DNA of 64,000 bases from a virus. The notes beneath the pieces are model-generated. The model was not told where the DNA came from. It made no database searches and saw nothing but the letters and a program-made list of their open reading frames with translations. Shown here one piece after another: positions 7,084-35,032 of this stretch. A program made the translations under genes and the position numbers. How positions within the stretch are numbered: the first letter of the stretch is position 1; each line of letters starts with the position of its first letter. Location of the stretch: positions 24,897-88,896 of the IMG/VR virus record IMGVR_UViG_3300028920_000057; one strand, given 5' to 3'.

Positions 7084-8229
7084 TTAGAAATAAACCCGGA
7101 CAGGCTCAGTTACAGTAATGTCAAAGAGAGCCAATTCGTCATCCTTGAGTGTATATGTCTTATCCTGCTGAACGATCCCGTCAATACACAGCTTCAATAC
7201 TCTGCCAGTTACACCAGGATTCGCGGCAAATACGGGGTCTAAAGCCTCTGATGGATTTATTAAATCTCCAACACTGGCTGTCGATAAGACCGTACCAAAT
7301 TCTCTCTTAAGATTATTTTGAATTGTAAGCTGTTGTGTTTCAGAGAGTTGAAGTCCACTGAATTGATATTCAACGTAGACAGAAACATATTTTGGACCTT
7401 CAACAATAACCGTAGAACCAGCAGGTGCAACCGCTAAGACATTACCTCTAACACGATCGACCGTAGATGGGCTAACGGTATTGCCCTCGGGAATAACAAG
7501 AATATAGATAACGCCGGGACCGAACTGGTCTGTATTAATGATAATGTCGCTAACTCCCGTCACAGATAATGCCGCGAGCCTTACTGCGGTTTCATTGCCT
7601 GTTTCTGACGCAAGATGTGCCTGAGAGATTCTATATCGGTAATTGTTATCTGTCTCAACTTCCTGTCCATTCGCTATTGCTCCCAAGTTTGTAACGCTTA
7701 ATCCTTCAATATCAATACTTGTCAACGCTCCAGCAGAAACATTATAGACCTCACCTACTTCAAGTCCTATTACGGGGACAAAAACAGAAGATGCAAAATC
7801 GTCTTCAAGATAAGTATCGGCCGAGACCTGATATGAAATCTCTCCAGTAGTGTCCGTAATGACTGTGCCTTCCGGGACTTTATAGCCGATACCATTATCA
7901 AATGGTAAATAATCTGCGAGAACTCCTGTTGTCGTACTGATAAGAACGTTTTGATCTTGAGCAGAAACATTGGCTGGGACCGCTTCTAATCGGCTAAGAC
8001 CAAACAGATCTTCTCCAATCAAATCCAGATATCCAGCTTCAGCAGATCGTAAAAATGCAGAAGAAGTTACAAATCTAATGTCCCTCAGAATATCTATTCT
8101 TTCATCCAAAAAGGCGTCTACAATGGCCCTAACTACACTCCCTGTAGAGAAAGCATTTAAGCCCTGAACGCTTAATCTGGAAAAAACACGGTCTGCAATT
8201 GTGGAGGGTGCGGTTTGTTCTATAAACAT
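7084..8229 (-). CDS. Baseplate J-like protein
   Basis: The 381-residue protein matches the J-like family of baseplate wedge proteins (P2 gpJ, T4 gp6 core). The N-terminus has the family's start pattern with ALVRA-like helices (STGSVVRAIVDAFLDERI, residues about 28-45). The middle has GTVITDTTGEISYQ, the typical beta-rich segment for this family. The C-terminal half has D.YRYRISQAHLA, then LSVTGVSDI and an IYILVIPEGN strand. The length is usual for the family. It lies 11 bp from the gp25-like gene, the standard gp25/gpJ pairing of contractile tails. It forms part of the wedge that links the tube hub to the sheath and fibres. Confidence 0.9.
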   Translation of the reverse strand: MFIEQTAPSTIADRVFSRLSVQGLNAFSTGSVVRAIVDAFLDERIDILRDIRFVTSSAFLRSAEAGYLDLIGEDLFGLSRLEAVPANVSAQDQNVLISTTTGVLADYLPFDNGIGYKVPEGTVITDTTGEISYQVSADTYLEDDFASSVFVPVIGLEVGEVYNVSAGALTSIDIEGLSVTNLGAIANGQEVETDNNYRYRISQAHLASETGNETAVRLAALSVTGVSDIIINTDQFGPGVIYILVIPEGNTVSPSTVDRVRGNVLAVAPAGSTVIVEGPKYVSVYVEYQFSGLQLSETQQLTIQNNLKREFGTVLSTASVGDLINPSEALDPVFAANPGVTGRVLKLCIDGIVQQDKTYTLKDDELALFDITVTEPVRVYF

Positions 8230-10162: not shown

Positions 10163-13100
10163 CTATAAGTTTGTTGTTATTTGTTCTCTTGCTTCTTCAA
10201 TTGCACGGGCAGTCTCTTCGGTACGCTTAATGAATCTAACGGTACCACGCCGCAGTGATAGCCAGAAATTACTAAAACCGAGCTTAAAGTCACGCTTTAA
10301 TATATCGTCAGCCTGTTGATTTGTCCAGTCGTTCTTTTCCCAGCCATCCAATCCGGCAACAAGAGGCTCTCCTTTATATCTCATAGGATGAATCCTGCAA
10401 GGATTTCGTCGAGACAGCCCCTTGCTATCAATCCCGGCCCATCCAAACGCAGTCGACGTATGCCCCACGGCCGATATTGTAGGAAATGGGATTCCCAAAA
10501 ACGAAGAGGTCGTACCCCCACGAGCCTTGGCGGACGCATATTGTGTCGCAGAAATCGTGGCTCCCGCAGCGATCATGGCAAAACCTAGTCCATACAGCGT
10601 AAATAAACCTGGGGATGCCAATACCGCAATAGCTCCGACGCCCCACCATGCAAGTTCTGCTACCGATTGCTCAATCACCCTTTGCGATTCCATATCTTCA
10701 TTGGCAAAAGATATTAAGTGAGGAGTGATCGTTGTCGTAAACCCTGTCTGATTATTATATAAATGGACAACCCTCTTTACCTCAAAGTTTCCTCTAAGGT
10801 CCCGCACGCTATCTTCTAAAGTCACAATATCATAGGGATTTACCTCGGGCTTACCCAGGGTAGTAACGTTGCCCTGATACATCTCTCTGAGATAATCTGC
10901 TAGATATCCATGTCCAACCTGTGCAACCTTAGCTTCAAACCATGCTGATTCAGCCGCATTTCTGTCAAAAGCCGTAACAGGGATATCGTCTTGCAGTAAA
11001 GGAGAAAACGCAACAACGTGACGAACCATGTCTCCTGCACCCAGAGAGCTTTCTGGGCTTGCGGCCGCACTCCCAGTATTGGGAGTCCATAGAGTAACAC
11101 TGTTTGCCATATGGGCCTTACTCGCTATGATATCGTCGGATATAATATCCATGTCCGTTATAATGTGAGTGTCTCTGAATGGCTTGCGGTTTGGAGGAAT
11201 TCTTAAAACAGATTTGTCGATACCGACACTCATCTGCTCTCCTCTTGTAGGCATGTTTTTATTACGTATCTTTGTAGCACTCCTGGCTAAGACAGAAAGG
11301 TAGGTCTTTATAAAATCGTCCCCCAAAGCTATTTTTCTTGGTGCATAGATCGGCTGACTTGCCATAGGGTCTGAATCGTCATAGCCCACCTGTTCGCTTA
11401 GAAAACTAAACGCATAAAACTTCTTTGCTGTTTCCTGAAGTTTTGCCTTTATTCCGCCCCTGCCGAGACCAACTATTAAAGACCTAAGACTTATATAGCC
11501 TACATATTCAATTTTATCTGTTGCAAGAAATGCAAAATATAAGATTGGAAAATCTAAGCCCGCAGGAACAAGTTTTTCTACATGCGGTAATGTAGAAACT
11601 TTACTGATAAGGCTTTCGAATATCTGTGAAACAAGGAATCCTGTACCTGCAGTTACTTTTAATACTTTAGATATATTTACACCTATTTCTTCTGCCGTAT
11701 AATTAAATCTGCCTCCAGGGATCTTCACGTTCTCAGGTTTAGACAGAAAGTTTATAAGCGCGGAACTGAATGGAAGATTTCTTTCCTGTATGCTTTGTAC
11801 AAAATCGTTGTAGTCAACCGATGAGATTATCTGAACCCCTGTTGCTTCGGAGTTCGGGATGTCTATCCAATTACCGCTAGAAGGTTTTTTGAGTTTGACA
11901 AAAGCCCTTAGTGCTTCCAGATAATCGGCATTCCATATGTTTTTATGTTTTTGAAGCTTGTCTAATGCTGTAAAAATAGTTTGCCCATACTCTGACTCTC
12001 GGTCAACATCTTTTAGATCTACGTTAATTAGCTCAACCAAATTCGAGTTTCGAATCTCTTTCATGTCTGCAGAGATGGCGGCTTCTCTATAGAATACATC
12101 GTTAAACACTTTATGTACACCTGTATTTTTAAGTACGGTTATAATTTCATCTGTATTTCTTATATCGCTGTATTCCAGAAAACCTCCTGGCAAATAACTT
12201 GGGTAGTCACCATACTCATCGTCGCTAATCGTATGTACATACCGTGTCTTAAAACTAATAAGGTCTCCACGGGCAAACATGCGCCATAAACGAAGGAAGC
12301 AACGAGAGATATCTATCGGACTAAGATCTGTGGCTCCATTATAAACTAAATCGTTAGAACGGGCGATTTTTTCTCTTGTTGTATATGCGAATTTTATCTC
12401 TGTCTTTGTGCCGCTGATATCGTTATCTTCCGGCTTGCCGTCAAACGCAGGCAATCCTCGTCCCGGATAATAGTAGGTATCTCGTGCAATAATATTGCTT
12501 TCGCTAGGATTGTATTGTATATTATTGAGCCGATTATACATAACCATGTCTTGCGTCACATTGGATGTACAGATATAAACACCATCTTTAGGACCGAAAT
12601 ATAGAGTAGCCCTCTCATCATAGGGCTTAATCGCGATGGCATAGCCTGGAATATATCTTCTCATACTATAGATATTATCAAGGATAGGGCCGTTACAATA
12701 CCATTTTGATCCTTGTACAAGATTGAATGGATTCAATAGATTAGGAGAAGTGCCATGGTTTGGAAGGTTGTATAAATTATCGTTACATGTATCATTCATA
12801 CCAAGCCATTCTTCAGCTCGGAACCACCCCTTGGCAGTCACGTAATCGGGAGATTTACTTTTGGACTTCTCATGAGCATCAGCTGTTGTCCAATTTGCAG
12901 AATATTGATAGGGCTCCCACTTACCAAGATGTTCGGCATAATGAAGCATGTCCGTAATAATTGTGGGAAATGCGTTAAATGCGCCAGTCCAACTTTCTTC
13001 AAGATGACGCATAAGCTGATAATCATAGCCCTGAGCAACAAGTCGAATTATCTTACCAGGCTGAACTTCCGCTACTTGCCCCGTAAATATAATCGGGTTC

Positions 13101-16100
13101 TCATCATCAACAGAAGAATACCCCGCACGAATTTGAATCCTTACTCCCGGCTTCAATCTAAAGGAAACGATATCTCCAATAGCGGTTTCGGATAATTCTC
13201 CAGATTCTATCACCCGCCCTTTTTGGCCAAGCCTGTACTTGCCTTTGGAAACTAGGGTTGTCGTAACCTCTTCTCCTTCAATAACGTCTCTTGGATCTAT
13301 CTTTAATTTGCGATAATCTGGCTGATTCGTTAAAACGCCAGAGAAGTTAGTCAGTTCAACCGTGGCCCCAGAAACAGATTCTTTCTCGTGCATAACTGCT
13401 ACAGAGATGATTGAATCATAATTATAAAGCTTGGACCAGTTTTGGAATACAGCCTGATTTTCCTGCAGGAAGTATAATTGAACAGTAGGAAAAGCCTTGC
13501 GTATATCGTATACACGATTACTTTTATTCATCTGTCTTAGACGAACTATGTCTGGCGTATATGTGCTGTTAAACACATCTACTAAATTTCTTCCTTTGTC
13601 CTTTTTAGGGTTAATAATTTTCTCTACTTCTTTTTGTCCTTTGTCTTTATCTTCTTTAGACTTAATTCCGATACTATGGTTTTGTAAATCGGGATCTTCC
13701 TTTATTAAATTGCGAACTTCCTTTTGCCTTTTCTTTCTATATTCCGCTATTGTCTCTGCAGATTTAACAGCTTGCTTTTTAGTTATCTTGTCTACCTTAA
13801 TAGATCTTTCCTTATTAGCATCTCTCTTTGTGCTTATAAAAATGCCATGTTGCGGGATTTCTTTTGCATCATGCCTTGAGTTTTCGTAGTTCTCCCGAAA
13901 AAGTTGCACTGGCATAACCGGCTTATTATGATTGACTTTTTTACTCGGCTTTATAGATATATCGGGCTTCTGTTTCCCCGCCACGCCATACGGGACATAG
14001 TATTGCCAGCCCGGTTCAACAAGATTGTTGCCACTACGTGCTACCCCCTCTTTGTTTCTAACACCAAATTTGTTTATAGGAGGCATAACTCCAAGCTGTG
14101 CATATGTAGGTAAATTCTCAATCTCTGTAAAGATATTCTTACGATTAATGCGGGGTATTTCCCCAAATTCTTCTAGAGAAGAGGCAAGCGCTTCGCTGGC
14201 TGCAGTTATATTGTCAAGCCTTTTCTGAGCCCTGGTTCTTTTATCTCCTGTAAAAACCTTATTGTTCGCAAGCTCATCATTGAGAACCTCTACTCTCTTA
14301 TCTATATTGTTGATTGAACTTTTGATATTCCGTATAATGTCATCTCTATTTTTATGGATGAGGCTAATAAAGGCTGCAGATTCATCTCCCAACCTTAAAA
14401 CAGAACGCAGTTTATTTGATTCGGATGTTAATATAGAATCTCCAATCCTTAACGAAGCAGTATATAACGCCTGTGCTTCAGTCAGCATATTCAGAACATT
14501 AACTCCTGGATGCCCCAATTGGCCATAAACATCGTTATAAGTCGGAAGATTAAGATCTGCATGAGCAGTTTGACGCAACTTGACTTTCTTATACAGCTCT
14601 TGGATAATAGGATCGTCCGGGGCTGTTACGGCAAATATCGCAGATAAAAGCTCTTTATATGCATCTATCCTCAACGCGCTTTCGATCATAGTACGCACGG
14701 CCTTCTGCACATTTGCGTCTTCCCTATTCTTATACAGTAAACCAGAAAGCTCATAAATACAATATGCGAGGAAATTACCAGAGGTGAAGCGCTGGCGAGA
14801 TCTTGCCTGCTTAATTTGTGCGGCTCGGAATAGAGATCCGAAGACTCTTGTGACTAACCATCCTGTCGGAAACGATACGTCTTCTTCATTATAAAACGCT
14901 ATGCGATCATTAATGAACAGCGACTCCAATCCTTCTGTTCGATATCTTCCCATAAGCCCCATCTGTTTACGAGATATGTTCGGATTTAGATCGGTTTTCT
15001 TAATAAGGTCATTTAAAGAATCTTGAGTAAGAGAAATGAAGTTGATACCTTGGGCAACCCACAAAGAACCTTTTTTTTCTATAATTCTGAATATAGTAGC
15101 ATAACCATGAGGGTCTACGCTAAACCATTTCTTTGCATTGGAAGGGACAGAACTCGGTGAGACCTGAATAATCCCGGCGAATTGCATCGCCCTCATATAT
15201 GCATTCCATGCAACACGATCTTCATTCGATGAAAAAACATTGAATTCATTAATTATCTTGAATATAGGACAGTTCTCTTTAATAGCAAATTTATACGGAT
15301 ATCTTCTTCGATTAGTGTCGGTTAAACTTGGATCATCCAAATTGTCAAACTTGGCCAGAATATCATGCCCTTTACCCACTGCGACATTAGTACTCTTCTT
15401 ATATGCTCTTTCAAAGAACGGAGTATATGCAATTTTATCTGGTACGTTCCTATTGGCTATCAGAAACTCATCGTCTTCATCCGGGTTTGTATATTGCAAT
15501 AGAATAGGAATTTCTTTAATCTTGTCTGCGTCTTCTGCTTCTGTGAAGAATTTGTTGGGGCCTATCAACATACGCCATATACGAGTAGACACTGCCGTAT
15601 GTTGTATTTTCCTATTAAACAAAACCTCCATTAGAGTATCTACTATATCATCTTGTTCCTGTTCGCTTGCCTCAAATACATTGGGTAGTGCAACCAAATC
15701 AAGATTTTCATTATGAGAATCCATATAACCAGATTCTATCATGTCAAATGTAACAAGAAACCATCCTGGACTACCTTGCTTGTCTGCTATTTTGATAGAC
15801 TGCAAAATAAATTGTTTGTTCCCAAAGATATTCGTAACGGGACTTATAACCTGGACCTTTGTAGGAAATATTTCATGAAAGGTAGATCTTGCAACCTCTT
15901 GCATAAGCTTGTCTACTTTACGAATCTCTGTTATTGAATCCAGATTGTTTGTACTTAAAGTGATAGATGCAAATGAGTTTCCCTTGCCCGCATATTGACA
16001 AGTTGGTATCTCGGACGCTTGCAGAGGTATTGTTTGTATATTGTTTGCTATGCTATAATTAATTGATTCGACATGTACGTTATATATGTTATCGAGATTT

Positions 16101-18568
16101 GTGTCGTTGCCCCTTGAATAAGGATACATTTTCAGCTGTATATTTTGTGTTGTTTTAGTATAAGAAAGGTTTTCTATATCCTTTTGTGTCAGATAAGCAA
16201 GGATCGGATAGGTATACGAGAATATGAGAGGCGCGTCCTTTTCTCCCAAGGCATTGTATGGTGCAATCCTCTCTCTGATGTTCGCAGATTCATCTAAATA
16301 CGTTTTGTCTATCCAATCTGTTACAACGGGAGTTCTGGCTAAATCTGATTCATATATATCATATTGTTTGTTAAGACCCGCAACTCCATAGCCCTCCTGA
16401 AATGCTCCCTCTATGGTTGCGATATACCCAAAGTTCGGAGCATACGGCATATAGTTGAAGAAAGAGAATCTCATTGTGGCATGTAAAGCTTCGGGGGCAT
16501 TGGGAACTGTAGATATACTTAATCCCTTAAATACCATCGGGACCCAGTTATCTATAAACTTTTTAGCAAGAACTTCAGTATGAGCTTTTGAAGTATATTT
16601 GAATGAATCCTGAAAATCAGCTTCATCCTTACGATCCTTTTCTGTCCTGTAAGATGCGAGGATGCTACGAATCTTTTCGAATTGTTGATCGTCATGAAAT
16701 CCCTTGGGGCTTGAAAGTCCTATTGTGGTTTCAATCGTTTCTAATCTACGCTTCATCTCTGCGAGAGTGACAGCGGATGCATGTACTGACTGAGAAGGGA
16801 CGGCGTCTATTCCTCGTACTACAGGAGACCACGAATCAGAACCTCCAAAATCGTTGAACTCAATAATGTTACGCCCTTTTGGGATCGTACTGAATGGGGC
16901 ATATATATAAATTGTATCATGGGGTTCTGTCCCGAACTTGGTAAAATCACTTGGACCCATCATGGCATTGAATTCATGTGCATATCCTGTCGTTTTACTT
17001 CTCGTAAGAGTATCAAAAGAAGCAAAACTGCTTGCAGATATATGTCGGGTCATAAAATAAAAGTGCTTGTTTACCATCTCATTAAAGCTTGCAGGCCTTA
17101 CAATCCTTAACTTTATAGTAAATATGTCGTCCTGATTTGCTATGCGGAATTTGTTTTCCAATTCGTAATACGGATACTGATTGGCTAACGCAGGATTGTG
17201 AGAAGTTTTACCTGCCCATCCCGCTAGACTTGCAGCATCCATTTTGTAGATTTCAAATGCCGACGTCTTTTTGATAGATCTAAATGCATTAGGGGGTAGA
17301 ACAAGATTGTCATCTCCTTGAGGGGTCGTTAACGCAACGCCGGTTTTGGGGTTAAAACCATTTGCATAAATATCGGGAAGAGCTTTGGCTGAGTTCCAAA
17401 CACCCGTTCCTGAAGCACTTGACGTTTTACCCGCTTCCAGATAAGGTTTATCTTTAATCCCCGCATTACCTGCGTTTGCAAGAGACATGGGAAACGCGAG
17501 GCCTTGCTGTGCCAATACTGCGTTTTGATTCTTTCCGTTAGCATATATCTCTGTCAAGGTTCGACCATATACTCCTTCGTCTCCCTTTTTAAGAGTGACA
17601 GCATCGTAGGGATCCCAGAAGTTTTTAGCCTGTATAGCATGGGTTTCCTCATAGGTAGTCGCACTCCTGTCGTACCATTCCTGTCCTGGCAAATTGTCGT
17701 GAGCAGTTTCGTAACAATCAATACCTACGATCCTTAGTTCTTCTCGGTTAGGAAGCCGGATGCTGTCTCCGTCTTTTATATCTGTTCCCGCAGCTTTGAG
17801 ACTTATCCCCTCTATTGCTGTCAAGCCTTTTCGAGACGCATCAAGTACCGTATCCGATATCCCATCACCATAAGATCCAATATCGTTGACGGCACATTTA
17901 ACAAACTGATCTACAAGCTTATCAACGGTAGGAGCTTCGTTTGGGCAATGCTTACCTGATAAGAAATTATATTTGTCTATAGCGATTTTATAGTATCTTT
18001 TGACTTCACTTATAACTTGTCTTGCGGCATATACGGGGTCCTTATCAATAAGCTCGTCTATGTATTGCCTTCCTGTCTTATCGACAGTCTTAGTAATAAC
18101 TTCGAGAACCGCTTGTAAACAAATATCTCTTGTTGCGGCATATACAAATTCTGGATAGAACAATTTGTCAACAATAGTCGATGTTAATAACAGGCCTGTC
18201 TGCCCCCTATTGACACCCAGGGCTTCCTTCCTTGTCTTTTCATATTGATCTTGTTCTGCCTGAAGTTGTGCGAGTTGTTCTTTGTTAAATAATGATTCAA
18301 TATAGATAGATGCGAGAAGATCGCTTTGAACATTAATAAATGGCATAGAATTATGTAGAGCAATAAGCGGCCTGAGTTTTGTGTTGATATCCCTTTCGTT
18401 AGGAAACACTACGCTGAATTGAATCTCAAACGCAGAAGATCCAGAAGGAATGGCCTGTGGCATTCCTCCCCGTATAGCCGGAATGATTGCATTCTTTTTA
18501 ATATCCGCAATTACCAGTGAATCTGGATCGACCGTAAGCTCTACATGCCCTATTCTTATATTTGCCAT
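10163..18568 (-). CDS. Giant baseplate hub-like protein with internal staphylococcal-nuclease-type domain
   Basis: This is the largest gene here, at 2801 residues. Residues about 260-395 form a thermonuclease (SNase) domain. Aligned to staphylococcal nuclease, D268 is D21, R279 is R35, D284 is D40, E287 is E43 and R336 (in VYGRTL) is R87, with the same spacing; the GVW segment near residue 390 matches the C-terminal helix. Residues about 1690-1900 contain a beta-rich segment with LKPGVRIQIRAGYSS, FTGQVAEVQPG and LVAQGYDYQLMRHL, resembling the gp27/gpD-type hub barrels of contractile tails. A hydrophobic helix pair (AVLASPGLFTLYGLGFAMIA) lies near residue 2650, with a basic C-terminus. The gene starts 1 bp within the stop of the 1857-residue gene's frame and ends in TAG. 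The hub role is inferred; the SNase assignment is strong. Confidence 0.88.
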   Translation of the reverse strand: MANIRIGHVELTVDPDSLVIADIKKNAIIPAIRGGMPQAIPSGSSAFEIQFSVVFPNERDINTKLRPLIALHNSMPFINVQSDLLASIYIESLFNKEQLAQLQAEQDQYEKTRKEALGVNRGQTGLLLTSTIVDKLFYPEFVYAATRDICLQAVLEVITKTVDKTGRQYIDELIDKDPVYAARQVISEVKRYYKIAIDKYNFLSGKHCPNEAPTVDKLVDQFVKCAVNDIGSYGDGISDTVLDASRKGLTAIEGISLKAAGTDIKDGDSIRLPNREELRIVGIDCYETAHDNLPGQEWYDRSATTYEETHAIQAKNFWDPYDAVTLKKGDEGVYGRTLTEIYANGKNQNAVLAQQGLAFPMSLANAGNAGIKDKPYLEAGKTSSASGTGVWNSAKALPDIYANGFNPKTGVALTTPQGDDNLVLPPNAFRSIKKTSAFEIYKMDAASLAGWAGKTSHNPALANQYPYYELENKFRIANQDDIFTIKLRIVRPASFNEMVNKHFYFMTRHISASSFASFDTLTRSKTTGYAHEFNAMMGPSDFTKFGTEPHDTIYIYAPFSTIPKGRNIIEFNDFGGSDSWSPVVRGIDAVPSQSVHASAVTLAEMKRRLETIETTIGLSSPKGFHDDQQFEKIRSILASYRTEKDRKDEADFQDSFKYTSKAHTEVLAKKFIDNWVPMVFKGLSISTVPNAPEALHATMRFSFFNYMPYAPNFGYIATIEGAFQEGYGVAGLNKQYDIYESDLARTPVVTDWIDKTYLDESANIRERIAPYNALGEKDAPLIFSYTYPILAYLTQKDIENLSYTKTTQNIQLKMYPYSRGNDTNLDNIYNVHVESINYSIANNIQTIPLQASEIPTCQYAGKGNSFASITLSTNNLDSITEIRKVDKLMQEVARSTFHEIFPTKVQVISPVTNIFGNKQFILQSIKIADKQGSPGWFLVTFDMIESGYMDSHNENLDLVALPNVFEASEQEQDDIVDTLMEVLFNRKIQHTAVSTRIWRMLIGPNKFFTEAEDADKIKEIPILLQYTNPDEDDEFLIANRNVPDKIAYTPFFERAYKKSTNVAVGKGHDILAKFDNLDDPSLTDTNRRRYPYKFAIKENCPIFKIINEFNVFSSNEDRVAWNAYMRAMQFAGIIQVSPSSVPSNAKKWFSVDPHGYATIFRIIEKKGSLWVAQGINFISLTQDSLNDLIKKTDLNPNISRKQMGLMGRYRTEGLESLFINDRIAFYNEEDVSFPTGWLVTRVFGSLFRAAQIKQARSRQRFTSGNFLAYCIYELSGLLYKNREDANVQKAVRTMIESALRIDAYKELLSAIFAVTAPDDPIIQELYKKVKLRQTAHADLNLPTYNDVYGQLGHPGVNVLNMLTEAQALYTASLRIGDSILTSESNKLRSVLRLGDESAAFISLIHKNRDDIIRNIKSSINNIDKRVEVLNDELANNKVFTGDKRTRAQKRLDNITAASEALASSLEEFGEIPRINRKNIFTEIENLPTYAQLGVMPPINKFGVRNKEGVARSGNNLVEPGWQYYVPYGVAGKQKPDISIKPSKKVNHNKPVMPVQLFRENYENSRHDAKEIPQHGIFISTKRDANKERSIKVDKITKKQAVKSAETIAEYRKKRQKEVRNLIKEDPDLQNHSIGIKSKEDKDKGQKEVEKIINPKKDKGRNLVDVFNSTYTPDIVRLRQMNKSNRVYDIRKAFPTVQLYFLQENQAVFQNWSKLYNYDSIISVAVMHEKESVSGATVELTNFSGVLTNQPDYRKLKIDPRDVIEGEEVTTTLVSKGKYRLGQKGRVIESGELSETAIGDIVSFRLKPGVRIQIRAGYSSVDDENPIIFTGQVAEVQPGKIIRLVAQGYDYQLMRHLEESWTGAFNAFPTIITDMLHYAEHLGKWEPYQYSANWTTADAHEKSKSKSPDYVTAKGWFRAEEWLGMNDTCNDNLYNLPNHGTSPNLLNPFNLVQGSKWYCNGPILDNIYSMRRYIPGYAIAIKPYDERATLYFGPKDGVYICTSNVTQDMVMYNRLNNIQYNPSESNIIARDTYYYPGRGLPAFDGKPEDNDISGTKTEIKFAYTTREKIARSNDLVYNGATDLSPIDISRCFLRLWRMFARGDLISFKTRYVHTISDDEYGDYPSYLPGGFLEYSDIRNTDEIITVLKNTGVHKVFNDVFYREAAISADMKEIRNSNLVELINVDLKDVDRESEYGQTIFTALDKLQKHKNIWNADYLEALRAFVKLKKPSSGNWIDIPNSEATGVQIISSVDYNDFVQSIQERNLPFSSALINFLSKPENVKIPGGRFNYTAEEIGVNISKVLKVTAGTGFLVSQIFESLISKVSTLPHVEKLVPAGLDFPILYFAFLATDKIEYVGYISLRSLIVGLGRGGIKAKLQETAKKFYAFSFLSEQVGYDDSDPMASQPIYAPRKIALGDDFIKTYLSVLARSATKIRNKNMPTRGEQMSVGIDKSVLRIPPNRKPFRDTHIITDMDIISDDIIASKAHMANSVTLWTPNTGSAAASPESSLGAGDMVRHVVAFSPLLQDDIPVTAFDRNAAESAWFEAKVAQVGHGYLADYLREMYQGNVTTLGKPEVNPYDIVTLEDSVRDLRGNFEVKRVVHLYNNQTGFTTTITPHLISFANEDMESQRVIEQSVAELAWWGVGAIAVLASPGLFTLYGLGFAMIAAGATISATQYASAKARGGTTSSFLGIPFPTISAVGHTSTAFGWAGIDSKGLSRRNPCRIHPMRYKGEPLVAGLDGWEKNDWTNQQADDILKRDFKLGFSNFWLSLRRGTVRFIKRTEETARAIEEAREQITTNL

Positions 18569-21500: not shown

Positions 21501-24141
21501 AATTAAATGCAGTCAGCAATTCTCGTTTTACTTTCCTGGGTATGTTTCTTTGGCGAGCCATTCTTAATATAGCCCTCTCGGGAGATTTGCCTTTATACGT
21601 CTCTAAGAATTGTTCTGCCGTTTTAGGAAATTCACCTTTAAGTTTATCTCCTCCGAAATGCCTCCCGTACAACTCAACAAAAGCATCTCGGCCTGTCTTG
21701 TATCTTCCTCGGACCTTTAATTTTCTAGTCTGAGTTTGAGCAACAGAACGAGCATGTATCCGAGCATCTCTTCGGGGAGTACTTGCGCGATACAAAGGAG
21801 CGCCTCCAACTCCGCCAGCCTGCTCGGCAGTAGCTCTTGTCTTAGTCAATACAATGCCTTCTGCTTCGTTTATCAGCTTTTCGTCTACCGCATGAACTGC
21901 TGCGACGGGAATCCTTCTCCTCCCCTTTATATCTCTTTGAGCATAGAAACCTTCTGGATCACCATAGATTTCTTCGAAAAAGCCTACATTACCTTTCAAC
22001 TTTTCTTTGGGGCCTACTCTGTTCTGTTCAGCAGTAGCCTTGATTTCATCAATGACGACTGCGGGAGACTCTGTCAAGTCTTCACCATAGGTCCATGTCG
22101 CCCTAACTTCCTCAGACAAAGATCCCTGTGTATGCTTTAGTGAAACAAGTCCAGTATGAAGGGCTCGAATTTCTTTTGCTACATACTCTTCTGTTTCACC
22201 TGCTACTTGTCTGGTCTCAATAATCTGAGCTAACAAAGCCCCTTTCTTGGCAAAGACGTCTCGATCAAGAGCTTCTTTTCTTAGAACTCTAAGGGTCTGC
22301 GTCTGAGGATCGATACCCCAACGATTAAAAGTCTCTGTTGTCTTTGTTAGTATTGAAGGATCTAAATAAGGGTTGACCTGAAACATTCCTGACGCTTTAT
22401 TGGCTACAGTCGGAGACCCAATAGCTCCTAAAGAAAACTCTGGTACCAACAGGGGGAAATCAGCAGCTTGAGCTCGAGCCCATTTATTGTACTGACTCGT
22501 ATACTCTGCTACAGACATCTTCCCAAAAACAATGTCGCGACCCATCTCTTTGAAGCCCCAAGCGCGTCCTTGTTCTGTAATTGTTTTTCCTTTTCTTGCC
22601 AAGCCAACTAAATAGTCAACAAACTCCTCTTGATAAGCACCGTGTACAAAGGCAACACCAGCTTGCATGTGAGGAGTCGCTTTGTAACCAACGTTACGAG
22701 ACAATGCGCTAACCAATTTTCCGTACAAACCTCCCGCTTTCTTTGGAGAGGCTACAGATATATCTATTCCCATCTTTCTGGCCGCACGCAGTTTAAGTCC
22801 TGCTTGACCCGTTAGATTCCATGATGTCGTGTTAGCCAGGGCTTTGGCTGGGCCTTCTCGCTGATAAGTCCTCTCTGATAGACCGAAAAACTCATGAATG
22901 GACATCTGATTCTCAAATAGAATAGAAGATGTAGTTCCGCTAAACAGTTTTTGCATCCTGCTACCAACCGCTCGATTCCACATATCTATCGCTTCACTAG
23001 TCGCTCCGACCATAGTCTTATCTTTTAAAATATAACCACTCTTGCTTTTTTGTAAAACCTGACCATATGTACTGATTTCATCTCTTGTAAACGCAGGCAG
23101 TATCCGATGGATGTCTGAAGTCGGGTCAGACATCTGCTCGCCAAGCACATTAAATGCCTTCTCTGCGTTTAGAACAACCTCGCCTTTTTTGTTCACGTCT
23201 TGAAGATCTTCGAACACGATTCGAGCGGAATGCAAGACCTGTTCTATAGCTCCCAGCTTATCGCTGACTTGTCTCTGTCGTGGTCTGGATGGCTCGTAGA
23301 ACTTCTGAAATCTATCTACTAGCGATCCTTTTAATCGCTTAAACTTCCCTGCGGCTGAAGAAGCATCTCTCCATTCATCAGAATTGATCGCCTTAAATAC
23401 CTGAGCCAAGACGGCTTCATTGTATGGCATCAGCACAGCACTTTTACCAGCCTGGGTGGCAGACAATCCAAACCCCTCAAGGCCTTCGGTAGCCACAAAG
23501 CCCGCAATCGGAGCCACGTTCATACCCCTACCATAAGAGCCGAAAACTCCTGTAATAAACGGTAAGCGAGTTTCGCCAATAGTTCTATCTCCTATAGAGG
23601 CTCGTAGCGACATAGAGAAAGTAGCGCCAGCTAAAGCATCTTCTTTCCCAGATCTTGCTAAGGTATTAATGGCTCTTTTGCTTAGGCTTGAATCAAGAAC
23701 AAACTCAAATTGTACACCAGTGTCTTTTTGTATCTGGGCAAATTGTTTCTGCACATTCTCCAGCTGTCTTACGTAGTTCTTGGCATGTTCAGACCCCGTT
23801 CTGAGTCCTTTGACATCTATGAAATCGATAAGATCTTTATTTTGATCGACCGTATATTCTGCTATCTGCTGTTGGATCCTGGCAATTTCTTTAACGTCTG
23901 TAATAGAGACTCCTCCGACGGGTCTGGCTTCTATATCTGGACGCAACTCGATGTCTCGAGTATATTTACTGGGTTGCCTGACAACACTAGTTACACCTTT
24001 GATAGGCCTGGACGCGGCTCGAGATGCAAGCATAGACTTCTGCTCCCGACCAATGGCTTTACCAGTGATCAGAGTGTCGGCCTCCTTTGCTGCTTGGACC
24101 ATCTCTTCAAACATATCTATCTTAAAACGCGCTTTGGCCAT
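18568..24141 (-). CDS. Giant virion protein, tape-measure candidate
   Basis: The 1857-residue protein lies between the other two giants downstream of the tail assembly chaperones, where a tape measure protein is expected. It is mostly helical, basic and repeat-poor. A Gly/Ala hydrophobic segment (AIAGLVAFAGGVAMAGMFG) lies close to the C-terminus, near residue 1745. The final about 65 residues resemble the C-terminus of the neighbouring 1372-residue protein: IT.P, then IG..M.A..YS, then N.DI..MY, ending in TGRF. Its ATG overlaps the stop of that gene (TAATG), so translation is coupled. It could instead be an internal or ejected virion protein. The tape-measure label is inferred from position and size. 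Confidence 0.75.
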   Translation of the reverse strand: MAKARFKIDMFEEMVQAAKEADTLITGKAIGREQKSMLASRAASRPIKGVTSVVRQPSKYTRDIELRPDIEARPVGGVSITDVKEIARIQQQIAEYTVDQNKDLIDFIDVKGLRTGSEHAKNYVRQLENVQKQFAQIQKDTGVQFEFVLDSSLSKRAINTLARSGKEDALAGATFSMSLRASIGDRTIGETRLPFITGVFGSYGRGMNVAPIAGFVATEGLEGFGLSATQAGKSAVLMPYNEAVLAQVFKAINSDEWRDASSAAGKFKRLKGSLVDRFQKFYEPSRPRQRQVSDKLGAIEQVLHSARIVFEDLQDVNKKGEVVLNAEKAFNVLGEQMSDPTSDIHRILPAFTRDEISTYGQVLQKSKSGYILKDKTMVGATSEAIDMWNRAVGSRMQKLFSGTTSSILFENQMSIHEFFGLSERTYQREGPAKALANTTSWNLTGQAGLKLRAARKMGIDISVASPKKAGGLYGKLVSALSRNVGYKATPHMQAGVAFVHGAYQEEFVDYLVGLARKGKTITEQGRAWGFKEMGRDIVFGKMSVAEYTSQYNKWARAQAADFPLLVPEFSLGAIGSPTVANKASGMFQVNPYLDPSILTKTTETFNRWGIDPQTQTLRVLRKEALDRDVFAKKGALLAQIIETRQVAGETEEYVAKEIRALHTGLVSLKHTQGSLSEEVRATWTYGEDLTESPAVVIDEIKATAEQNRVGPKEKLKGNVGFFEEIYGDPEGFYAQRDIKGRRRIPVAAVHAVDEKLINEAEGIVLTKTRATAEQAGGVGGAPLYRASTPRRDARIHARSVAQTQTRKLKVRGRYKTGRDAFVELYGRHFGGDKLKGEFPKTAEQFLETYKGKSPERAILRMARQRNIPRKVKRELLTAFNLWQTEMSEQATMGTFSPMKTTFRDQLMITGRAFGSEGGMAAYVYRQSQLREAIIKGSNAKYLRGAMMQVDTALPFFQGDYLDVMRKAGRVIDIDVGAASDETMRGARMLSKFFEVKSNPLDQDSPETLRELFKDASKRLGHRRPKDTDAATMGFRMKFSNRADFTDEFLDTIMTRSEFWTGRRAMILKQVFERGIGFASNEELMRNLDEKAFGMPALKTRAKIYNAAVEFAESLADKSLSLDERIAHAQVLTETIENEFKSTMGNAMRGKGGSIAKAFWIEEEGAIVHPMQIGAVHKKGTRAFRLANKIAHEFRTGQYTGDLRQLLKSSKGARQIAEDLATVFINPDDMKEFMRGTGMKDTDKAFGIYRRWPDLSTTNQQVVRLISDPQVARGKAAVGGLLIELAKGDFDFDMGSLTFLPTGRTASNAMRRLVDKGFQATQQEMLGELQYYATGYQTLKAVRELSADVERDELARIINRVSAEEDRIRAQMRQSGEPMRPENIKAKTKVDAQLHKIKQAYRRQFGALDNKWERIIKGQLEYGLETGKVSNLSARVLAAVSGEALEQGALFGEAAGWVTETGIKKKELLPGLYDALSFTLSEARIREFKDTKAINNALRAKGMYALLQKMERGHTLGAQERTDFIDSFKASLGRRITDEDIKLAGVNTHLGKLLSEHKGKFMLDIGDQALPNEAFLSLTEKVSKGKEHMYLLDDERFGGMADILREVLAKRTADTPGKLKEIESGADLLAKTMRVLTSKQAKGESAEYVSELFYRTQEYLAKHKLDDLAPEAGIPLLHAVQAAVGVGVADPDMARSAFRDSMKKAVESGRASKDAQEKILEATTRAAGKAKEGKLINTILSRSLIPEGRGAIAGLVAFAGGVAMAGMFGDTGELLPPTPVQEVDPSVTQRAITAPPAYLHQQSAIGSRMVANGYSSDVPGVVNMMNTAGMTGSVNVNDNMTNDINFMYSHHQRNTGRF

Positions 24142-27100
24142 TAAAATCTCCCTGAGTACCTATACTTATAAGCGTCAAAAGTTGACCTGCGATCATACAT
24201 TATATCAATATTGGCGTGATTGTCACCTACGGCTCCCACGGTTGGCATGGAGCTTATTTGCATATTGTTAATAGGCATGGAATATGATGCTGCAATCATT
24301 TCGTCACCAATCGTAGCCATATTTGGCAATGTGATTAGGTTTTTTATGTAAGGTCGCGATCTATCTAAGTCTCGCTCGTCGGCTCCCCAGAATCCATAAT
24401 CATGGACATCTCTGCCGTCGAACTGGACAGACGCCAGTTTAATATCATCAAGAGAGACATCTGGTCTCCATCCGGCCCAGCCTGGCCCAGGCATAGGAGT
24501 TCCCGCAACAGACGCCTGCGATTGCTGAAGAGCCTGCATATTTGCTCCCAGACTGCCACCCCTGGCTTGCCATATCTTTTGAAGCATTGGAGCCATATAA
24601 TCTGGAACTTCCCTTAGAATGTCCTCGTGATACTCAGAGGGAGCGTGAGAGAAGTCCAGAAGAAAACGGCGATCCGCCTTCGGTAAAGCGAGATATGCAT
24701 TTTCTATAAATTCTTGATTTGCACTTCCGTAATCCAGTCCTCTCATGGTTCGACCATGTATTTTGTCCAAACGAGCCACAACATCATTCCTGCCCGCTCT
24801 CTGAGCTATATCAGATAGAACTTCGACCTTTTGAGCCTTCATGCTGTCAAAATATGTTTCTATTTCACGACGGCGCTGTTCTTTCTCCCAGTGGTCTCCG
24901 GTGTTAAGTAGATTAGAAACGACGCCTGCTCCCATACCTCCTATTCCTAAAACCATTGCGCTATACGGGTCTCGACCCAAAACAGCAAAAGCAGCACCAG
25001 AAGTAGCTGAATCAATCACATCTCGAGAAGCCATCTGTCTCATATATGGAATCAGCATGGAATCTATCGGCTGAGTCCAATCGTAGAAATCATCACCCAC
25101 AGTTATTCTGTCTCTATAGAGGTCTAGAGGAGTCTGTCTCTGATAGAGTTTAGAAAAAGCATAAGGAATATGAGGTAAGGATGGCTTGAGTCCCATCGTC
25201 CAGCTGGTCGAGGGATTTACAGAGAAGGCCGCAGAATGGTCTGTCTTAATTAATGTGCTGGGCTGCCCTTGGCCTCCCATAAATGGAGATCCCGGAAATA
25301 CCTGAAAGCCACCTGAAGCGTTGTATCCGTTATGAAAGTTAGATACCATTGGGTTTATTTCATCGCGAGTTCTCATTCCAGGTAGAAAACGGCGAAGCAA
25401 CTCTGTTGAACCTATAGCTCCTCCCAGATCCATATCATAATAAGCCCTACTTGTAGAATAAAGGTCTGTCGCATTTTGCCAACGCCGACCTTCAGCAAAA
25501 AAGTCCGACGTACCCGTTAGCTGCTTCTTAGCAAAGCCAATAATAAACCCGCGCATCCCCCAAAAGGTCTTAATTCGATCAAGAGTCTGTCCTGCAGCAT
25601 CTAAAAGGCTGGGAACTCTAGGTACTGTAAAACCAGGATTGATAGTCTCATATCCAAGCTCGCTCGCTATTTGCTGAAGTTCGTCTTTTTTACCTCTCTT
25701 CTGAATAAAGTCTCGAATAGCATGACCATGCATTATCTTTGTAGGTTTTAGTCCCTCACCTATAGTCGCCCCAAGTAGAGGACCAATTATAGGTACGTCC
25801 GTAAAGAGCTGGCCCGTAAGAGGGTACGGCTGATTATAATAATTTCTGCGCTCTGTATAGTACGGATCGGTTCCCGGAAGTCCTGTCCAAGAGGTTAGAG
25901 GAGTTCTCAAAGGAAGGGTTAAGGGAGATACATTGAGAAAATATGCGCCTTTGCCCCCATAGATATCATATGGCTGATCTTCCATCTGCCTGGCAATGTA
26001 ATGCTTACGCATTCTAGTTATATCACCACCAGCATAATCTTGAGGGCCAAGACCCCACCACCTGTTCTCTCGTATGGGAACCAGCTTCTCTCCCATATAC
26101 TCAGCCCGCAGATCTCTCCAATCCTTCATTGTAGCAGAGGTTCCTAAAGCCAAACCTCCTACAACGGCACCAACCATCCCACCTCGAGTTTTAGCTGTAG
26201 CTTGCCCGATATCGCTTAGAATTCCTCTGTTTGCGGCGCGCTTTGAAGCCAGCCTCTTACCTATGGCGCCTCCAACAGCAATGCCGGCAAGGCCTCTAAA
26301 CGCATATCCAAGGAATGAATCTGGCAAACCTGGGAAAACAGCGTCTACGCCTTCGGCTACTGGCGTCATAGTATAGTTGGTAATTGCTTGCTGGCCGACC
26401 TTAAGAGTCCCGTAGGTGGCTAATGCAGATTTCTTCAGTCCTACATCACCAAATGGATTCGCTTTTTCTACCAGATAATCAAAGAAGTGAAGACCTTCCC
26501 ATGCGAGATATGCCCCAACTCCTGTTAACGCTGCCGCTCCCAAGAATTGCATTGGCCCCATAGGCTTAACACCTAAGCCGGTAAGAGCTTCGATTAACCT
26601 TACTGTGGTTTGAGATCCTTGTGCAGCCTTAATCTTCAGGCTGTTCATAAAGCCGCCTTCGTAGGCCATGTACTGAGCTGAAACAGGACTACTCGGCTTC
26701 AGTCCTCGGAACGCATTTTGTCTACGCTGCTTAGGGCTCGGGTCTACCTTTCCAAAAGGACTGGCTTCACGCCCAGACTGCACTCTCCTGAGCCTGCGCA
26801 GTCTTTCCATACTAATTCTACCCTTCTGAGTCCGGGCAAGAATTAGCTCTTCTTCCGTTAAGTGCGCGTATTGGCTTGTCTCAATCCCAAGCTTATTCGC
26901 AATTCTTTCGAATAAGTCTAGCTGGTCTTCTCCTTTTACAAAGCCTCGCTTGGGATGCCAGACTATTCCTTCCGCACCAGAGTATTTTGGATGTGGCGTG
27001 GTTTTCCCGAAGCGTTTGAACCAGTCAAATATTTTACCGTATACAGTCTTAGGTTCTACTGCGTGTCTTGAGGAATAGACATCTAATCCCTTGCTGGTCA

Positions 27101-28259
27101 GCCATTCGTCAACAGAGGCGGTAAGAGGAGTAGCTCCGGTGTCTGCATTATATACAAAATTTAGTCTACGCCCTGTCGCTCCCTCGATCAACTCATTTAA
27201 AGAGGGTCCTCCTCCTATTTTTTTATTAAAGATAGCTTCGAGTATTGGGTGGTCATAGAACCCTTTTTCAATAAGACCTTTTCTAGTCCTGCCGGTTGCA
27301 GCGTCTTTATATCCTCTTAAAGGCTTTGTGGAAGCATACCGCTCGTCCATAGAAGCGATGCCGCGTGCAGCAGAAGAATCTGTAGCATATATCTTATAGC
27401 CACTGCCGAGCTTCTGTAGCTCACCCTCTCTAATAGAGAACAGTTCGTCGTCAATAATAAAGCCTTGCTCTGGCTCAAACCCGAGCATCGCCATATTCTT
27501 CGCACTAAGACGTGCAGTAAGAGGTCCTTCTCCTGAAAAGATAAAATCTAAAGGATTGCCAACAAAGGGATAGCGGAGTCTTTCAGTTAAAGCCTTTTGA
27601 ATACTTCCCGCAGTAAAGGCTTCCGTTATAACTCCTTCTTTTCTATTAAGAAATACTCCTCGGTCTATGATCTCTTCGCCAGTCAGCAGAGGATCTGCTT
27701 TGCGACGCATTTGCTTCATTGCTATAAGATCTAGCTCGTCCATCTCCCTGCCAAAGATGGTAACGGTCTCCCTGCCGCCTCCGATAGGCTTGGCTGCTCC
27801 TGCTCCGACTCTCTCGTATTCCGATACAACGTGCTCTACGTTTAGGTACTCATATCCCTCTGGCAAGTTCGTATGTAAGCCCTCGGGTCTGGAGAATCTT
27901 CTCTTGATGGCTTTTTTGAGATTCCTCTGAAGCTGTTGTCTTACAGAGTCTGGAGTAGACATAAATTGTGTGTATTGCCTACTTATCTCTGGTAGTAAGC
28001 CCCGAGAAAATGTCCTAGTAGAACTAAGAGAGGAAAGAGATTCACGAAAGTTGTGACCCAGTCGGCCCAGCTTCATAGACAGAGGCTCTAACATATACCT
28101 TGCATCGGCAAATGCTCCTGCCGTAGACTGTCTTAGAGCTCTGTAAGCTCCAATACCCAGGCCTACCCCAATCAGAGTGGCTCCAATCTTTAATGCCGCA
28201 CCCACCCCATCGGGCTGTTGAGGTCTTTCAGGATATGCTGTTGGATCATAAGGAGGCAT
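24141..28259 (-). CDS. Giant virion protein with hydrophobic glycine-rich segments, tape-measure or ejection candidate
   Basis: The 1372-residue protein follows the two chaperone-like genes. It begins after 20 residues with a Gly-rich hydrophobic stretch (ATLIGVGLGIGAYRAL). Further hydrophobic segments lie near residues 560-580, 685-700 and 730-745 (GGMVGAVVGGLALG). Such segments are typical of tape measure and ejection proteins that insert into host membranes. The C-terminus ends in SGRF and is similar to that of the downstream 1857-residue protein, suggesting a shared docking or sorting signal. No enzyme motif was found. I cannot say which of the two is the tape measure; both may be. Confidence 0.75.
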   Translation of the reverse strand: MPPYDPTAYPERPQQPDGVGAALKIGATLIGVGLGIGAYRALRQSTAGAFADARYMLEPLSMKLGRLGHNFRESLSSLSSTRTFSRGLLPEISRQYTQFMSTPDSVRQQLQRNLKKAIKRRFSRPEGLHTNLPEGYEYLNVEHVVSEYERVGAGAAKPIGGGRETVTIFGREMDELDLIAMKQMRRKADPLLTGEEIIDRGVFLNRKEGVITEAFTAGSIQKALTERLRYPFVGNPLDFIFSGEGPLTARLSAKNMAMLGFEPEQGFIIDDELFSIREGELQKLGSGYKIYATDSSAARGIASMDERYASTKPLRGYKDAATGRTRKGLIEKGFYDHPILEAIFNKKIGGGPSLNELIEGATGRRLNFVYNADTGATPLTASVDEWLTSKGLDVYSSRHAVEPKTVYGKIFDWFKRFGKTTPHPKYSGAEGIVWHPKRGFVKGEDQLDLFERIANKLGIETSQYAHLTEEELILARTQKGRISMERLRRLRRVQSGREASPFGKVDPSPKQRRQNAFRGLKPSSPVSAQYMAYEGGFMNSLKIKAAQGSQTTVRLIEALTGLGVKPMGPMQFLGAAALTGVGAYLAWEGLHFFDYLVEKANPFGDVGLKKSALATYGTLKVGQQAITNYTMTPVAEGVDAVFPGLPDSFLGYAFRGLAGIAVGGAIGKRLASKRAANRGILSDIGQATAKTRGGMVGAVVGGLALGTSATMKDWRDLRAEYMGEKLVPIRENRWWGLGPQDYAGGDITRMRKHYIARQMEDQPYDIYGGKGAYFLNVSPLTLPLRTPLTSWTGLPGTDPYYTERRNYYNQPYPLTGQLFTDVPIIGPLLGATIGEGLKPTKIMHGHAIRDFIQKRGKKDELQQIASELGYETINPGFTVPRVPSLLDAAGQTLDRIKTFWGMRGFIIGFAKKQLTGTSDFFAEGRRWQNATDLYSTSRAYYDMDLGGAIGSTELLRRFLPGMRTRDEINPMVSNFHNGYNASGGFQVFPGSPFMGGQGQPSTLIKTDHSAAFSVNPSTSWTMGLKPSLPHIPYAFSKLYQRQTPLDLYRDRITVGDDFYDWTQPIDSMLIPYMRQMASRDVIDSATSGAAFAVLGRDPYSAMVLGIGGMGAGVVSNLLNTGDHWEKEQRRREIETYFDSMKAQKVEVLSDIAQRAGRNDVVARLDKIHGRTMRGLDYGSANQEFIENAYLALPKADRRFLLDFSHAPSEYHEDILREVPDYMAPMLQKIWQARGGSLGANMQALQQSQASVAGTPMPGPGWAGWRPDVSLDDIKLASVQFDGRDVHDYGFWGADERDLDRSRPYIKNLITLPNMATIGDEMIAASYSMPINNMQISSMPTVGAVGDNHANIDIMYDRRSTFDAYKYRYSGRF

Positions 28260-31864: not shown

Positions 31865-33712
31865 TTATGATTTACTTAAATCAAGTTCAACTAGAACCTT
31901 GACGATTTCGAAAGCAGGTACGATGACTGCTTTTACGCTGACTTGGCCAAGCACGGCCTGATCCTCGGTTTGTTCAAGCGAGAATTCATACCGATTAATA
32001 AAGCCATTGCCATCATCAACCAACTGTCTAAACATGTCGTCCAGATCGGCTCGCATACCATTGAGGCGGGCAGAATTGCCAGCTTCGCCAATATACGGAT
32101 CGGCAACGCGCCGTATCAAATCCATAACCTTGGCCGTAATACGGACGGTGGTTAGGTTTGTATAGTCGCTCCGACGATACTGATCGATATTGTAGGCGGA
32201 CGTAATCCCTCTTGCCACAACGTATCCCCGACCAGGCTTTCTGATGGTGATAACGTAGCGTGCTGCAACAAGGTCGTCTGCGTCTGAACGCTTAATGTCT
32301 CTGATTGACTGGAAGCCATCAATAGACTTATTGGTTGTAGAGCTGTTTTCAGGCAGCCTTAGAACCAGCGCCAGGTACTCACCCACGCCATTAGACACGT
32401 ACGTGCGTTCACTCGGAGCCCCAATCAGGCGCAACGTCTGATCGCCATATGTGTTGCTGGAAACACCTTCCATGGCGCCAAGGCTAACCCATCGACCGAG
32501 GTCGACTTTGTTGCCATGAGCATCCACGATGTCGCCAGTAGAACCTCCGGGATTTGCACTTGCACCCCCGGTGGCCTTCCACATACGATAAGTCGTAGGA
32601 ACCAGATCGGATTCGCCAGCCGTATGGCCATCGAGTCCAGAGCTATTAGTGAAGTCCTTCGCATCGTCAATAAAATCGTTCCATTCGGCAAGAGTAATGC
32701 CGAAGGAATCCGTAGTTGAGGGATTATAACCTCTGAACGCTCGCCGGAAAGCGGTTTGCATCAGTCCTCTAACGGTATTGAATTCTGTTTCAGTACCATC
32801 AAAGACTTCTACAGCGCCCAAAAGCTCAGTTCCCTCTATAGGCGTTTCTGTCACAGTTATGATGGCGGCATCGTCATCATAGCTTGCGACATAATAATCT
32901 CTACTACCTGTGGAGTAATAGACGGTTATTTTAGCGCCTACATATGGAATACCCTCGCCCTCGAAATCTCCCGAAGATGAAGATGAGTTCGCAAGCAACG
33001 TAGAATCAATTACGATCTGCTTGGTAGCAGCGTCAATAGAATCAATGTTGACCTGAGCAATGCTAAGCTTATTAAAATAAGACGTAGCAAATGCGTCACG
33101 GAATTGCTTGAATCTGATAGGAAGTCGGCCAATGGCTGAAATGACAGCGTCATTTTCCAGGCTGGCATCTTCACAGAAGTTAGCAAGCTGATATGCGAAA
33201 TCACCCGAATCACCATCGTAGGTGCGAGTGGTATTATCTGAATCGTATACCTGAGTCAGGTCTGCCCGAAGATCAGCATAAACACCTGGGATATAAACAA
33301 TATCCAAGGTATGATTAAGCAGATTCTCAAACGTTTCCTGAAGAGCAGTGTATCTTTCAGTTTCGGTCACAATGTGACCGTTGAAATTGGAGTTGCCGCA
33401 GTAAAGAAAACCTTCCTCACCCCAACCATGAGCGATCTTGACAAACTCTACCGTAACACCCTTTGAGACCTCCGCAATAGCTTTTGTAAGCTCGCTCGGC
33501 TTAGTGCCGAAGTCGTCGTTGATCGCAGGGTGAAACGTGGAATATCTGTCAGCGCTCGAATCCGTTAGGAGCACTGGGTCATTAAGGGGTATGTCTGCAG
33601 TCGTTACGCCCAATACCGTAATTTTGGTACCGGGAGCAGGACGTTCAACACGAAGATTCCCGTCATTCAGCGACACCACAGTTCCTGGTAAATTAGGGAA
33701 TTGTGAAGTCAT
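31865..33712 (-). CDS. Contractile tail sheath protein with serine tract
   Basis: The 615-residue protein has the sheath plan: an N-terminal segment with PGTKITVLGVTTADIPLN, a domain reporting a 'virtual' SEL..A strand set, and a C-terminal domain with GYVVARGITSAYN, RRSDYTNLTTVRIT, DLIRRVADPYIGE, and the C-terminal arm FEIVKVLVELDLS that links subunits. It lies just upstream of the tube gene. An insertion near residue 240 contains NSSSSSGDFEG followed by a small beta unit (about nt 32830-33000), probably a surface-exposed decoration. This gene identifies the phage as having a contractile tail. Confidence 0.93.
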   Translation of the reverse strand: MTSQFPNLPGTVVSLNDGNLRVERPAPGTKITVLGVTTADIPLNDPVLLTDSSADRYSTFHPAINDDFGTKPSELTKAIAEVSKGVTVEFVKIAHGWGEEGFLYCGNSNFNGHIVTETERYTALQETFENLLNHTLDIVYIPGVYADLRADLTQVYDSDNTTRTYDGDSGDFAYQLANFCEDASLENDAVISAIGRLPIRFKQFRDAFATSYFNKLSIAQVNIDSIDAATKQIVIDSTLLANSSSSSGDFEGEGIPYVGAKITVYYSTGSRDYYVASYDDDAAIITVTETPIEGTELLGAVEVFDGTETEFNTVRGLMQTAFRRAFRGYNPSTTDSFGITLAEWNDFIDDAKDFTNSSGLDGHTAGESDLVPTTYRMWKATGGASANPGGSTGDIVDAHGNKVDLGRWVSLGAMEGVSSNTYGDQTLRLIGAPSERTYVSNGVGEYLALVLRLPENSSTTNKSIDGFQSIRDIKRSDADDLVAARYVITIRKPGRGYVVARGITSAYNIDQYRRSDYTNLTTVRITAKVMDLIRRVADPYIGEAGNSARLNGMRADLDDMFRQLVDDGNGFINRYEFSLEQTEDQAVLGQVSVKAVIVPAFEIVKVLVELDLSKS

Positions 33713-34758: not shown

Positions 34759-35032
34759 TTAGCAAATTCTTAGTAGCGTTTGTTATGATTGACCTAATAT
34801 CCTTAATTGTATCCGCATAGTGTCTAGCGTCAACCTTGAGGTTATTGGCCAGGTATTTGAGCTCTATTTCTCTATAGTCTTTATAGGAAAAGACAAAAAC
34901 GACGCGAACTCCTCTTGGATTAGCATCCTTCGGAGGCGTCTTTTCTATTCTGAGAGGCTCAAGTCCGCTCGTGATACATGCGGCGACTTTTTCAATATCG
35001 CCAACCCTGATTTCTCCCTTGTTCTTGGCCAT
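34751..35032 (-). CDS. Small head-tail joining candidate
   Basis: The 93-residue basic protein has one central strand segment (VRVVFVFSYKDYREIELKYL) followed by two helices. It overlaps both neighbours: the upstream gene ends within its ATG region and its 3' end overlaps the 344-residue gene by 8 bp. Position between the connector-like and sheath genes suggests a small neck protein. No family was recognised. Confidence 0.62.
   Translation of the reverse strand: MAKNKGEIRVGDIEKVAACITSGLEPLRIEKTPPKDANPRGVRVVFVFSYKDYREIELKYLANNLKVDARHYADTIKDIRSIITNATKNLLNE

Follow-up and report, generated by a model that had tools for sequence, protein, structure and literature searches.

The baseplate hubs of the Bacillus phage 0305phi8-36 family have exchangeable extra domains, which have been argued to take the place of the tail lysozyme in T4, and gp147 of 0305phi8-36 itself has been assigned to the T4 gp27 hub family (PMC2147016). 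One such domain, related to staphylococcal nuclease (SNase), was noted in 2007 in the BtI1 hub of B. thuringiensis israelensis (RBTH_07687), its purpose being 'not obvious' (Hardies et al. 2007, PMC2147016). The hub section of that paper has neither a survey nor an analysis of catalytic residues, and it is the only work on SNases in phage tails or baseplates found by a literature search with incomplete journal coverage. Here, we analyze an SNase domain in a giant hub protein of 2801 residues, encoded in a 64,000-nucleotide stretch (the window; positions 24,897 to 88,896 of IMGVR_UViG_3300028920_000057, an 88.9-kb uncultivated virus record in IMG/VR). As judged from sequence, SNases recur across the hub family, where they are found at four different positions.

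The BtI1 and window proteins are both hubs of the 0305phi8-36 family with an SNase-related domain, but that of BtI1 is described as preceding the conserved hub domains on the N-terminal side, and that of the window lies inside the first hub domain. The hub of Acinetobacter phage vB_AbaM_ME3 (ME3_37, AND75198.1) shares the hub family and a complete SNase (Pfam, 53 bits) with the window, but its SNase sits mid-protein and is followed by an M23 peptidase, which is not recognised in the window hub. The match of the two SNases by blastp is not significant. ME3_37 (7330-14319 of L143) has a possible stretch like the SLT transglycosylases, the SNase and M23 in tandem, and its annotation goes no further than 'baseplate hub protein' or 'peptidase'.

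The homologous hubs of Bacillus phage KLEB27-3 (gp35) and Moorella phage MTATph1 (CDS0032) have an N-terminal SNase with D21, R35, E43 and R87, which precedes their RIGDV domain. The D40 position is Q in KLEB27-3 and N in MTATph1, whereas it is D in the window. These hubs are annotated as 'putative baseplate protein' and 'endolysin', respectively, and neither as a nuclease.

Staphylococcal nuclease or thermonuclease (PF00565; PDB 1ey0, 1snc) has the fold and the five catalytic positions in common with the window domain, but it is a free secreted enzyme rather than part of a predicted virion protein. The likeness to the T4 tail lysozyme gp5 on the hub gp27 is in the working, as an enzyme that a baseplate hub bears at the tip of the tail. 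However, gp5 is a peptidoglycan hydrolase on a separate chain and its fold is unrelated to the SNase.

The SNase domain and its hub protein

The window domain is almost certainly a genuine SNase domain, as the preliminary description of this DNA had proposed. The Pfam SNase profile (PF00565) matches the whole protein with 33.4 bits (E 6.5e-8) and the isolated domain with 39.1 bits, both above the curated cut-off of 21 bits, and staphylococcal nuclease provides the top PDB matches by phmmer (best E 5.5e-6). This is the only SNase match in the 88.9-kb record. A standalone phage SNase gene is ruled out, because the domain sits within the single 2801-residue frame. The search with back-translated sequence patterns found no close relatives of the domain or the hub.

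The window residues D268, R279, D284, E287 and R336 align with D21, R35, D40, E43 and R87 of staphylococcal nuclease, and the metal ligand D40 is present as D284. They had been described as equal in order and spacing to the staphylococcal residues. The identities and the order hold, and the R35-D40-E43 spacing is exact (5 and 3), but the D21-R35 spacing is shorter by 3 (11 vs 14) and the E43-R87 spacing longer by 5 (49 vs 44). The full catalytic set agrees with the claim that the domain is intact rather than decayed. It also looks complete in that it has a C-terminal 'GTGVW' element, the counterpart of 'GIGLW' in the free-standing SNases.

The structure prediction, which the preliminary description had suggested as a check, matches the SNase OB-fold only. 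The AlphaFold2 model has a predicted local distance difference test score (pLDDT) of 66.6 and a predicted template modelling score (pTM) of 0.62, and all the 50 top PDB matches listed by Foldseek are SNases (E from 3.7e-5, probability 1.0, template modelling score ~0.5). The alignment used for this model includes free-standing viral SNases, and an earlier model from 26 divergent hub SNases alone was poor with pLDDT 47.

The protein itself, read from a single uninterrupted open frame on the minus strand (Table 1), is by homology the baseplate hub of a very divergent phage of the 0305phi8-36 lineage, which bears out its earlier naming as a tail hub. Its two core blocks are found by profile in 14 proteins including those of the window, KLEB27-3 and MTATph1. 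The window core is homologous to KLEB27-3 gp35 and MTATph1 CDS0032 and, via both of them, to ME3_37, which is annotated by homology to the baseplate hub protein of 0305phi8-36. With the window core, the record L031 is also found at E 1e-12. NlpC/P60 and M23 (both above the cut-off) and a weak SLT match (E 0.018) occur in the L031 hub, domains that are described for gp147 (PMC2147016), and no SNase is found there. The hub core profile found no hub structure among the PDB sequences but one irrelevant weak match, and the gp27 assignment rests on PMC2147016. In the hub core tree, the window is on a very long branch of 8 changes per column, so its placement is unsure.

Spread and conservation of the hub SNases

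The genome scans of IMG/VR and GTDB, with the window and two phage records added, gave 94 hubs and 66 non-redundant ones. Of these 66, 39 have the D21-R35-E43-R87 motif, whereas residue shuffles gave 0.04 on average and 2 at most, so that the motif exceeds chance. Outside the hubs, the full motif occurs in 6 of the 2,876 open reading frames (ORFs) of the same loci, and all six are pieces of hub genes.

The SNase lies N-terminal to RIGxV copy 1 in KLEB27-3, MTATph1, L004, L007, L009, L013, L032/L036, L039, L044, L048, L049, L053, L090, L093 and L103, and many Bacillota-associated contigs carry it N-terminally. It is C-terminal to the core in an environmental clade with hubs of 2600–4100 residues (35 rows, support 100 in the hub core tree), and mid-protein in the ME3 hub (SNase 1126-1241, M23 1301-1401). 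The RIGxV domain is duplicated in the hub family, and the SNase lies inside its copy 1 only in the window phage among the hubs compared. Decayed copies are N-terminal in L030, L037, L038 and L063 and C-terminal in L065, and no SNase is found in the hubs of L005, L006, L008, L014, L016, L017, L018, L031, L035 and L104.

In L060-L062, L084, L091, L075 and L073, overlapping ORFs take the place of one hub gene, owing to a frameshift, an intron or a split of the gene. In all of them except L073, for which the SNase motif was not detected, one of the later pieces carries the SNase.

Few of these domains pass Pfam, so most hub SNases escape the standard annotation. At E 0.01, 5 of 26 isolated hub SNase domains pass, and no SNase match reached E 0.001 in a scan of 16 full-length hubs. 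By profile-profile comparison, the N-terminal type matches free-standing viral SNases over the whole domain (97.5%, E 8e-12) and the C-terminal type (profile A11) matches free-standing SNases over the D21-E43 half (93.6%, E 2.2e-7), while the same A11 profile has no SNase match in PDB. Weak Pfam matches in the KLEB27-3 ORFs L022 and L023 were judged by eye not to be SNases.

The alignment of 26 hub SNases (A7), in which the relatives share 11–22% identity with the window domain, is invariant in seven columns, namely D19, G, D21, R35, G, E43 and R87. Its rows were chosen by motif, so the invariance is partly built in, and more weight falls on the R87 column and on the absence of invariant columns elsewhere. 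The loss of catalytic residues in close homologues, which the preliminary description had named as a refutation, is not borne out. The conservation that it proposed to check in relatives is found for D21, R35, E43 and R87 but not for D40, which varies in hubs (N in 25, D in 14, Q in 3, T in 1 and R in 1), and a few relatives have decayed copies. About half of the free-standing Bacillota SNases have D and half have N at this position. The loss of D40 is rejected as a sign of inactivation, because the change from D to N is ordinary variation in the free-standing SNases.

Among the catalytic residues of SNase, mutants show D40 to be the most tolerant of substitution, while R35, R87, E43 and D21 do not tolerate it. 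The conservation pattern of the hubs matches this ranking with D40 the loosest. The ratio of nonsynonymous to synonymous substitution rates (dN/dS) of the SNase is 0.02–0.27 in close hub pairs and, in most pairs, near that of the rest of the hub. Together, the conservation and the dN/dS suggest selection for catalysis, and the window SNase is quite probably active as an enzyme.

Possible roles of the hub SNase

The chance seems about even that the SNase of the hub is catalytically competent and serves as a tail enzyme built into the protein. The virion would then present more than one SNase copy at its tail tip, where T4 has its tail lysozyme and where the relatives would have transglycosylase, NlpC/P60 and M23 domains. 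On contact, the nuclease would act at the cell envelope or within it, and not in the cytoplasm. It would cut DNA or RNA there, such as the extracellular matrix DNA and the envelope-bound or debris nucleic acid, and the cutting would clear the tail's path or free the particle.

The SNase family requires millimolar Ca2+, which argues for action outside the cytosol. We somewhat favor the envelope over the cytosol as the place of action, and take extracellular DNA as a possible but doubtful main substrate. The roles offered by the preliminary description, which were cutting of host DNA after entry, damage to rival DNA and genome-end processing, gained no specific support. Action at the cell surface fits better with a Ca2+-dependent enzyme, a protein expected at the envelope and a slot that the relatives fill with peptidoglycan hydrolases. 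The SNase (4.7e-14) adjoins the M23 peptidase (4.5e-22) in the ME3 hub, is accompanied by M23 and Hydrolase_2 in the L103 hub, and by a weak VanY-like match below its cut-off in the MTATph1 hub.

Several points weigh against a built-in tail enzyme. The SNase-bearing hubs in the 16-hub full-length scan have no recognisable peptidoglycan hydrolase, and the partnership with wall enzymes is found in few members only. The SNase is missing or decayed in some relatives and hence not essential to the lineage. Moreover, the model of the window domain is of only moderate confidence by its pLDDT and pTM, and the window phage record is a fragment.

The SNase may instead be a spare OB-fold, serving the hub as a structural or nucleic-acid-binding module without enzymatic activity. 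Decayed copies persist at the N-terminal or the C-terminal position in the five hubs named above, D40 is not strictly kept, and the second giant tail protein of six relatives has an SNase-like fold without the catalytic residues, so the fold can persist without catalysis. However, the invariant columns of the 26 hub SNases are the catalytic ones and D40N is normal among the free-standing SNases, and we consider the inactive module unlikely.

The other alternatives keep the activity but place it elsewhere. Delivery into the cell with the genome, for degrading host, plasmid or rival phage nucleic acid, would suit a tail-tip protein, as nucleases and inhibitors are common among the proteins that phages inject. 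It is improbable, however, as hub proteins are not known to enter the cytosol, the millimolar Ca2+ need is far above the cytosolic levels and the incoming phage genome would be endangered. Trimming or processing of the phage genome end, or gating of DNA release through the tail, is hardly credible for an enzyme that is not sequence-specific, when terminase normally makes the genome ends. Moreover, the SNase is most likely on the hub exterior, because four chain positions are tolerated. Action after lysis would free the progeny from host DNA tangles or aggregates. Ca2+ is available outside the cell and 0305phi8-36 is reported to aggregate (PMC2222632), but this phage itself appears to have no hub SNase (L031), hence no direct link, and we find such action quite improbable.

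Tail genes, origins and meaning

The genes around the hub are ordered as sheath, a weakly matched tube protein, giant tape-measure-like proteins, hub, a gp25-like wedge protein and Baseplate_J. The hub gene is thus placed between the tail tube/tape-measure genes and the baseplate wedge genes (Table 1). Farther away in the window are a UDP-glucose/GDP-mannose dehydrogenase beside phage structural genes (54636-55892), a 711-residue protein encoded upstream of terminase (49228-51363), which matches the RNase_T exonuclease below the threshold (E 0.0054), and a 675-residue protein with an N-terminal Big_5 immunoglobulin-like domain between the sheath and capsid genes (35032-37059).

Table 1. Predicted features of the hub and tail genes, by window position (i-E, independent E-value)
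Feature	Position	Strand	Basis
SNase domain (residues 260-395)	17384..17791	-	Pfam, PDB sequence matches, AlphaFold2 model with Foldseek
Giant baseplate hub protein, 2801 residues (0305phi8-36 gp147 / ME3_37 / KLEB27-3 gp35 family)	10163..18568	-	Two core blocks homologous to annotated hubs
Insert of ~590 residues holding the SNase and splitting RIGxV copy 1 (residues 89-679)	16532..18304	-	Domain profile gap
RIGxV domain copy 1, first part (residues 4-88)	18305..18559	-	Profile positions 2-103, i-E 1.3e-7; blastp
RIGxV domain copy 1, second part (residues 680-712)	16433..16531	-	Profile positions 111-143, i-E 1.8e-7
RIGxV domain copy 2 (residues 830-945)	15734..16081	-	Profile, i-E 5.9e-11
Hub core block 1 (residues 1679-2002, 'AFPT...AQG...')	12563..13534	-	Profile and alignment
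Hub core block 2 (residues 2450-2640, '...MYQG...TGF...')	10649..11221	-	Profile
Baseplate_J wedge protein, just downstream of the hub	7084..8229	-	Pfam PF04865, 4.6e-26
Tape-measure-like protein, 1372 residues, two genes upstream of the hub	24141..28259	-	C-terminal resemblance to the relatives' giant proteins, by eye
Tail sheath (contractile tail)	31865..33712	-	PHROG tail sheath, 2.3e-42

The second giant tail protein is encoded upstream of the hub, resembles a tape-measure protein and contains hydrophobic segments. It has the SNase-like fold without the catalytic residues in L021 (MTATph1 CDS0026) and in L026, L028, L025, L027 and L116 (of the L007, L013, L016, L014 and L104 records, respectively). 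Its 1372-residue counterpart in the window has no SNase-like domain. On the N-terminal side of the dead domain, L025 and L027 have a stretch that looks by eye like the Cas4/RecB-type PD-(D/E)XK nucleases (Q...LY...T...GYIYYINRD). In the L104 record, a 399-residue ORF (L113) ~7 kb upstream of the L116 copy has a degenerate SNase-like domain at its N-terminus.

In the SNase gene tree, a single clade of all the hub SNases is not rejected (p-AU of the approximately unbiased test, 0.665), and one and several acquisitions are not separable by the tree of so short a domain. The four positions reflect either recruitment on several occasions or a single domain that moved about in the hub gene.

What is new in the window is the SNase position and its presence in a very divergent phage, and what is new in the survey is that a single oddity becomes a lineage trait. 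Virion enzymes that open cells are known for peptidoglycan and polysaccharides but rarely for nucleic acids. The 2007 paper left open the purpose of one hub's SNase, and the spread, the kept residues and the four positions make the question testable in the isolated phages KLEB27-3, MTATph1 and ME3.

If active, the hub SNases would define a class of tail nucleases, relevant to the infection of DNA-rich biofilms and to the naming of parts in unannotated giant tail proteins. Tentatively, tail nucleases may be a general entry tool. The lineage would have repeatedly recruited or moved a catalytic SNase in its hub for a role parallel to the tail lysozyme, and the catalytically dead SNase-like domains would have spread to the second giant tail protein.

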